Assembly: GCA_946488855.1 (NCBI GenBank)
Contig: CAMLWC010000010.1
Location: forward strand, 1-41,027
Reading direction: 5' to 3'
Length of the DNA: 41,027 bases
Source: an uncultured Mycoplasmatota bacterium
Lineage (GTDB): Bacteria > Bacillota_I > Bacilli_A > RF39 > UBA660
This document shows positions 19,739 to 24,098 of this stretch, piece by piece. The translations under genes and the position numbers were made by a program. Below the pieces are notes generated by a model, which did no database searches, was not told the DNA's origin, and saw nothing but the letters and a program-made list of their open reading frames with translations. Each line of letters begins with the position of its first letter. The stretch's first letter is position 1.

Positions 19739-20257
19739 ATGATTAATAATGGAAAATATGGTGAGTATACAGATTTATATGATGAAAACAAAAAATTAAC
19801 TGGTTAAAAGTTATTTAGAGAAAAAGGGACAAAATTAAAAGTACCAAGTAACAGATATACAATAGAAGTCTTAGCTTTTATAGAAAATTCAAATGGAGAA
19901 TTTTTATTTCAAATGACTTCTAAAAGAAAAAATAATGTTTGGGCAACGACAGGTGGTCATGTAAAATCAGGACAAACAAGCATAGAAGCTATAGTAGAAG
20001 AAATAAATGAAGAATTAGGAATAGAAATTGATTCTAGTGAAATAAAATTATTTAAAACATATAAATACGAAGATGCATTTAAAGATGTTTTCTATATAAA
20101 AAAAGATATAGATGTAAATAAACTTAAATTACAGCAAGATGAAGTAGAATATGTAAAATATCTTTCAAAAGATGAAATTATGGAATTAATAAACAATAAT
20201 GGTAATATTAGAAAAACAAATATAGATGCTTTTTTAGATTTGATTCAAGATGATTAG
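19739..20257 (+). pseudogene. Nudix hydrolase gene with a premature in-frame stop
   Basis: A strong AAAAGGAAG site precedes an ATG at 19739. The frame runs 22 codons (ending KKLTG) to a TAA at 19805-19807, then continues open in the same frame with KLFREKGTKLKVPSNRYT and a full Nudix domain to 20257. The combined 172 codons fit isopentenyl-diphosphate-isomerase-like Nudix proteins. The Nudix box GGHVKSGQTSIEAIVEEINE is degenerate: the first Glu is Gln and the Arg before the Glu pair is Glu. Translation from the internal ATG at 19913 would lose the first strands of the fold. I read it as a pseudogene, or an assembly or sequencing variant. Confidence 0.75.
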
Positions 20258-22925: not shown

Positions 22926-23551
22926 ATGAAAACGATTGTATATTTAATTAGACATTCAGAACCATTAAAAGATATTAATAATATTATTAATAATGATAAT
23001 TTGCAGTTACAAAATGAAAAAACTTGTTTATCTATTAATGGTGAAATATTAGCAAATAAGATAAGTAAATTAGAAGAATTAAAAAAATTGATGTTTTATT
23101 TTCTTCTAATTATGTAAGAGCTATAGCAACTGCAAAATATATTGCTAATGAAAATAATTTAAAAATAAATATCATATCGGATTTGGGAGAAAGAAAATTT
23201 GGTATAAATAATTGGAATGAATTGCCTGAAAATTTTGAAATAAAACAGTTTGTTGATGAAAACTATAAAATTGGTAATGGTGAGTCACAAAAAGAAGTTA
23301 GAGAAAGAATGAATAATGTGTTAATTGATATTTTAGATAAATATAAAAATAAAAAAATAGCAATTGTAAGTCATTCGACAGCAATGTTATACTTGTTAAA
23401 AAAATATGTTGATATTGATAATGAAAGAAATTGTTTATTTAATAGAAAATGTTTCTTTAATTGTATGGAAAATTGGAAATATTGTGAAATATTTAAATTA
23501 GAATTTGAAGAAAATAAGTTAATTAATATAGAAAATATAAAGGAAAATTAA
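22926..23551 (+). pseudogene. Histidine phosphatase (phosphoglycerate mutase superfamily) with a -1 frameshift at an A7 run
   Basis: The first frame (22926-23117) begins with TIVYLIRHSEP, the phospho-His motif, and runs to a stop shortly after an A7 tract (23081-23087). A -1 shift at the tract gives IDVLFSSNYVRAIATAKYIA, the expected second family motif (SS..RA..TA). It joins the frame that continues to 23551 with IVSHSTAM, the second catalytic His. One base is therefore missing, or the ribosome must slip. The tract lies in phase as A AAA AAA, a classic slippery heptamer. The restored protein would be about 208 residues, normal for the family. It may be a true pseudogene, a phase-variable gene, a recoded gene or an assembly error. 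Confidence 0.8.
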
Positions 23552-23552
23552 A

Positions 23553-24098
23553 ATGAATAAATATGTTAAAGTAATGTTTGGCAATAAAGGTGCTAATTAT
23601 GAATATAAAATAGGGAAAGTAAATATCGCAAATAATTGGAATCCAACTGCTAAAAGTGGAAAAGAATTTGGAGGATTTAATTATACTACCGAAGAATGCT
23701 TATTAAGATGGTTACATAGAGGAGATACTTTGTATGATGTTGAAGTACCAGAAGATGCAGAAAATATAAAATTAGAAGGTGCTACTACAATTTATAGATG
23801 TAATAAAATTATATTAACTAATCCTAGAAAAGTAACTGATGAAATGGCATTAGAATTTTATAAAAAATCTAAAATACCAGAAAAATCTTATTATAAAGCG
23901 CTTGGAGCAGTATCGTTAATGAATTATAAAAAAACTGCATTAGCTATTTTAAAAGATAAAGTTAACAAAGATAATATTGATTTAGTATTAGATGAATGGA
24001 ATGATTTTATGAAAAATGGCGGTGATGGAAATAGAATTGCTTCTAACGATACAGTAATTTACATTGAGAAAGAATTAAAGAATATTTCTGAAAATTAA
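23553..24098 (+). CDS. Conserved-looking protein of unknown function (181 residues)
   Basis: The product is soluble with no signal or membrane helix. The N-terminal part (1-95) is beta-rich and holds GGFNYTTEECLLRWLHRGDT and LYDVEVPEDAENIKLEGATT, followed by YRCNKIILTNPRKV. The rest is helical (KSYYKALGAVSLMNYKKTAL, then LDEWNDFMKNGGDGNR). I have the impression of similar uncharacterised proteins in Clostridia and Bacilli but cannot name a family. The His and Arg in the LHRGDT segment could be functional. An AAAGGA site in the end of the broken phosphatase gene precedes the ATG, so the two are co-transcribed. Confidence 0.75.
   Translation: MNKYVKVMFGNKGANYEYKIGKVNIANNWNPTAKSGKEFGGFNYTTEECLLRWLHRGDTLYDVEVPEDAENIKLEGATTIYRCNKIILTNPRKVTDEMALEFYKKSKIPEKSYYKALGAVSLMNYKKTALAILKDKVNKDNIDLVLDEWNDFMKNGGDGNRIASNDTVIYIEKELKNISEN

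Follow-up and report, generated by a model that had tools for sequence, protein, structure and literature searches.

A histidine phosphatase gene at positions 22926-23551 on the plus strand of the window (the whole stretch of DNA analysed, 41,027 nt long, which is contig C10 of a metagenome bin of an AT-rich, Mollicutes-like bacterium) is demonstrably broken into two reading frames, and we consider it probable that the break is a real, recent and disabling frameshift, private to this genome, in an accessory gene. The bin amounts to 1.23 Mb in 76 contigs and is 71% complete, with a GC content of 24% in its sampled part.

Two fragments of one phosphatase gene

The 5′ fragment, ORF1 (22926-23117, plus strand), runs from an ATG at 22926 to a TAA at 23115-23117, encodes 63 aa beginning MKTIVYLIRHSEP..., and represents the N-terminal part of a branch 1 histidine phosphatase with its catalytic motif LIRHSEP. 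Beyond approximately codon 54, this ORF is an out-of-frame reading that continues to the TAA. The 3′ fragment (23081-23551, plus strand) reads KKIDVLFSSNYVRAIATAKY... from 23081 in the second frame to its end at 23551, and carries the motifs SSNYVRA...TA, ERKFG and VSHST. It matched the Pfam profile His_Phos_1 (PF00300) at 1.4e-18 with 67.7 bits, which passes the gathering score of 21.7, and the 5′ fragment alone gave no match to this profile. The first-pass annotation had described a histidine phosphatase split into two frames whose halves join by a -1 step at 23081-23087 with the SS..RA..TA motif restored; its coordinates and letters proved correct, the motif is present in the second frame, and the family is borne out by the profile match of the 3′ part. 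Taken across both pieces, LIRHSEP, the second Arg in SSNYVRA, ERKFG and VSHST are those of branch 1 of the histidine phosphatase superfamily (PF00300), from which the window gene differs in being split by the frame break. The best NCBIfam match was alpha-ribazole phosphatase, far under its cut-off, and the NCBIfam equivalog cut-offs were not reached. An intact relative of 214 aa (72% DNA identity, His_Phos_1 at 85.7 bits) is present on the small contig C56 of the same bin, near the contig end.

The break divides the catalytic histidines, the first lying in one frame and the second in the other. Because neither fragment has both, the gene has most likely lost its activity and is a putative young pseudogene. 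Reinitiation producing the 3′ half was also considered, and was rejected because no in-frame ATG is present upstream of the catalytic part of this fragment and because the N-terminal histidine would be absent from the product.

The A7 run and the orthologues of close relatives

The frame break lies at a run of seven As (23081-23087, plus strand) read as TTA AAA AAA TTG. As the first-pass annotation had claimed, the run forms an in-phase heptamer A AAA AAA of the type X XXY YYZ, and it is flanked by 11-base inverted arms, AATTAGAAGAA (23068-23078) and TTCTTCTAATT (23101-23111), that are perfect complements. A repeat finder lengthens these arms to 21 nt at 81%. Both features are common in this genome: among the 328 ORFs of at least 150 aa in 430 kb of the bin, which was taken piecewise (376 kb for the G012 sample), 184 contain an in-phase A AAA AAA, at 313 sites, and the same ORFs hold 434 A7, 165 A8 and 9 A9 runs. 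Perfect inverted repeats with arms of at least 11 and a loop of 3-22 number 64 in the 430 kb and 9 in the window. Moreover, the RNA fold around the A7 run was no better than shuffles (z = -0.83), and, among folds free of pseudoknots, no stable one was found in the 100 bases after the run (z = +0.63). Because the counts in the bin are high and the folds are unexceptional, the heptamer and the hairpin are background features of the bin genome, and the inverted repeat (23068-23111, plus strand) can be regarded as a chance one.

The three orthologues found in congeners (L009, L010 and L011) are 85-89% identical to the window gene in DNA sequence, and each is a demonstrably intact ORF of 208 aa without such a run. 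At the break site they have one base more than the window, with four As as their longest run, and their left inverted arm has two mismatches, so that the 11-base repeat is not kept. Because these three relatives have neither the A7 run nor the frame break, both are private to the window genome. The first-pass annotation had left a choice between -1 recoding, transcript slippage, a phase-variable switch and a plain one-base deletion; the comparison favours the plain deletion and speaks against recoding, the A run, the frame break and the full inverted arms all being missing from the relatives. In another genome of the set, two tandem histidine-phosphatase paralogues are present at L017 668-1963 (G006 contig C79), which suggests an expansion of the family in the genus.

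Programmed -1 ribosomal frameshifting that has evolved at this site would explain why an X XXY YYZ heptamer stands in phase at the junction, but we hold it to be extremely improbable, because such a site should be conserved and this one is not: neither the site nor the frame organisation is shared by the three orthologues, which are intact in one frame. The downstream structure is lacking, as noted, and no Shine-Dalgarno-like stimulator (GGAG, AGGA or GAGG) was found 6-17 nt upstream of the A7 run. The A_AAA_AAN site of dnaX, where -1 frameshifting occurs, is alike in heptamer type and phase, but the window site differs from it in having no stimulator, no conservation and no expected second product. 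The -1 sites of this kind in IS elements (PMC4066793) resemble the window site in heptamer type and phase, and differ from it in the same three respects. For -1 sites in general, the literature emphasises a slippery motif aided by stimulators (PMC4066793), a description that suits the window site poorly. A phase-variable switch through changes in run length is likewise very improbable; the homopolymer does lie inside the coding region of an accessory gene, but the run is missing in all three close relatives and a length of seven is ordinary in the bin.

The gene slot and its neighbours

The downstream neighbour (23553-24098, plus strand) encodes 181 aa without a Pfam family, and is a conserved partner of the slot in G007, G012, G014, G013, G003 and G001. 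In G007 the order is a gene which we take from its sequence to encode tryptophanyl-tRNA synthetase, then the phosphatase, the 181-aa protein and a Fic protein, the Fic domain having been established on the window copy. In G013 (L090 3181-3412), a syntenic phosphatase remnant precedes the 181-aa and Fic genes; ∼118 codons are lost, residues ∼35 to 153 being gone, and the remaining tail is in another frame. Such a decayed copy had been named beforehand as the sign of a simple pseudogene, and it was seen in this one species. The place of the phosphatase is taken in G003 and G001 by a zinc-dependent phospholipase C-like gene (PF00882), with no phosphatase remnant detected in the slot, and the 181-aa gene of these two genomes is closer to that of the window (87% and 81%, respectively). 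The slot is thus demonstrably dispensable, and the remnant in G013 together with the unrelated gene in G003 and G001 indicates that the phosphatase is an accessory gene that comes, goes and decays.

The Fic gene beside the slot in G003 (L105 756-1447, contig C10 of that genome) is itself split into two frames, at an A9 run, whereas it is intact in G001 and in the window. This split belongs to the same class of lesion as the phosphatase break and lies in the same neighbourhood. A further interrupted gene was observed in G001, where an HExxH peptidase-like gene (L106 1273-1785, contig C11) has a TAG at the position at which G003 has TGG.

Origin and consequence of the frame break

When G012 proteins were compared with the bin, 128 genes (42,411 aa) were comparable, and the only clean one-base frameshift among them was that of the phosphatase; a short case of doubtful status was also found, as were nonsense codons in four alignments. 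The reciprocal test on G012 gave a similar number of lesions. Since one clean frameshift occurred in 128 genes despite hundreds of A7-A9 runs, homopolymer errors are not general in the bin, and the rarity of frameshifts favours a real change in the phosphatase.

Other lesions were also observed among these genomes. A NUDIX-like gene in the window (19739-20257, reading MINNGKYGEYTDLYDENKKLTG, stop, KLFREKGTKL...), assigned to its family from sequence, shares 93% identity with a G012 ORF that is intact and carries, itself, a single TAA, at 19805, where G012 has Glu. A PBP/transpeptidase-like gene, at L056 8904-7816 in G000 (contig C2) and at L079 18719-19825, by minus-strand count, in G012 (contig C3), ends after NSCNLGGYTGT in both genomes and is followed by unrelated sequence, with a change of W to TAG just before the cut-off in G000; the pattern suggests either a truncated copy or an insertion, common to two species.

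The 3′ fragment carries 20 private residue changes, of which only 4 fall at columns conserved to at least 0.6, whereas 12.1 would be expected (no permutation out of 20,000 gave so low a number), and none falls at columns conserved to at least 0.8; the calculation assumes independent sites and draws on only three close relatives. Moreover, when the 40 private base changes were placed at random, a stop-free frame resulted in 3.7% of trials. The 3′ fragment thus looks to be still under constraint, and therefore the break is recent compared with the branch, most of the divergence being older, or it is false, or it is leaky and some full-length protein is made.

A false break would mean that the gene of the species is intact and that an assembly or consensus error has given the contig the wrong run length. 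Such an error would fit the selection signal, the fragmented and incomplete state of the bin, and the nonsense codons in other high-identity genes (W to TAG in the PBP-like gene and E to TAA in the NUDIX-like gene), but we judge it unlikely, because of the single clean frameshift among so many runs and the similar lesion count in the reciprocal test.

If the break were leaky, the frameshift would be genuine, but RNA polymerase slippage, or an incidental -1 slip on A AAA AAA, would restore the frame in part and some full-length enzyme would be made; the A7 run has a suitable phase and connects the two frames, and constraint on the 3′ fragment fits rescue. Blochmannia and Buchnera have poly-A frameshifts for which such rescue has been proposed (PMC3017870, PMC1088944). 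However, in many genomes it is at about nine As that selection against transcription slippage shows itself (PMC1088944), compared with seven here, and the A run is absent from relatives, no stimulator is present and the slot is dispensable. Hence rescue of this kind seems decidedly unlikely, and it is very doubtful that the run yields enough full-length phosphatase to keep the 3′ half selected; if it did, the gene would be leaky yet tolerated, in an AT-rich bacterium outside the known insect endosymbionts.

We therefore return to a recent private frameshift as the preferred explanation, and infer both that the organism itself carries the change and that the gene is disabled by it. The A run arose in the window lineage, because the codons of the relatives at this site have no run of more than four As; runs of this kind are prone to replication slippage, and a one-base change in its length would have shifted the frame of the accessory histidine-phosphatase gene. 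On this view the break is an ordinary one-base slip, and poly-A frameshifts are familiar from AT-rich genomes (PMC3017870). The poly-A/T tracts of Blochmannia and Buchnera (PMC3017870) resemble the present case in the single A-run indel, the otherwise open frame and the AT-rich genome, but the window run has only seven As, its gene is accessory rather than core, and there is no sign that its frameshift is conserved. By itself the break is of little importance, and its use is as a warning: in a genome of 24% GC, neither an in-phase A AAA AAA nor an 11-bp inverted repeat stands out from the background, so that where a frame breaks at such a site an indel should be assumed until relatives are found to share the arrangement.
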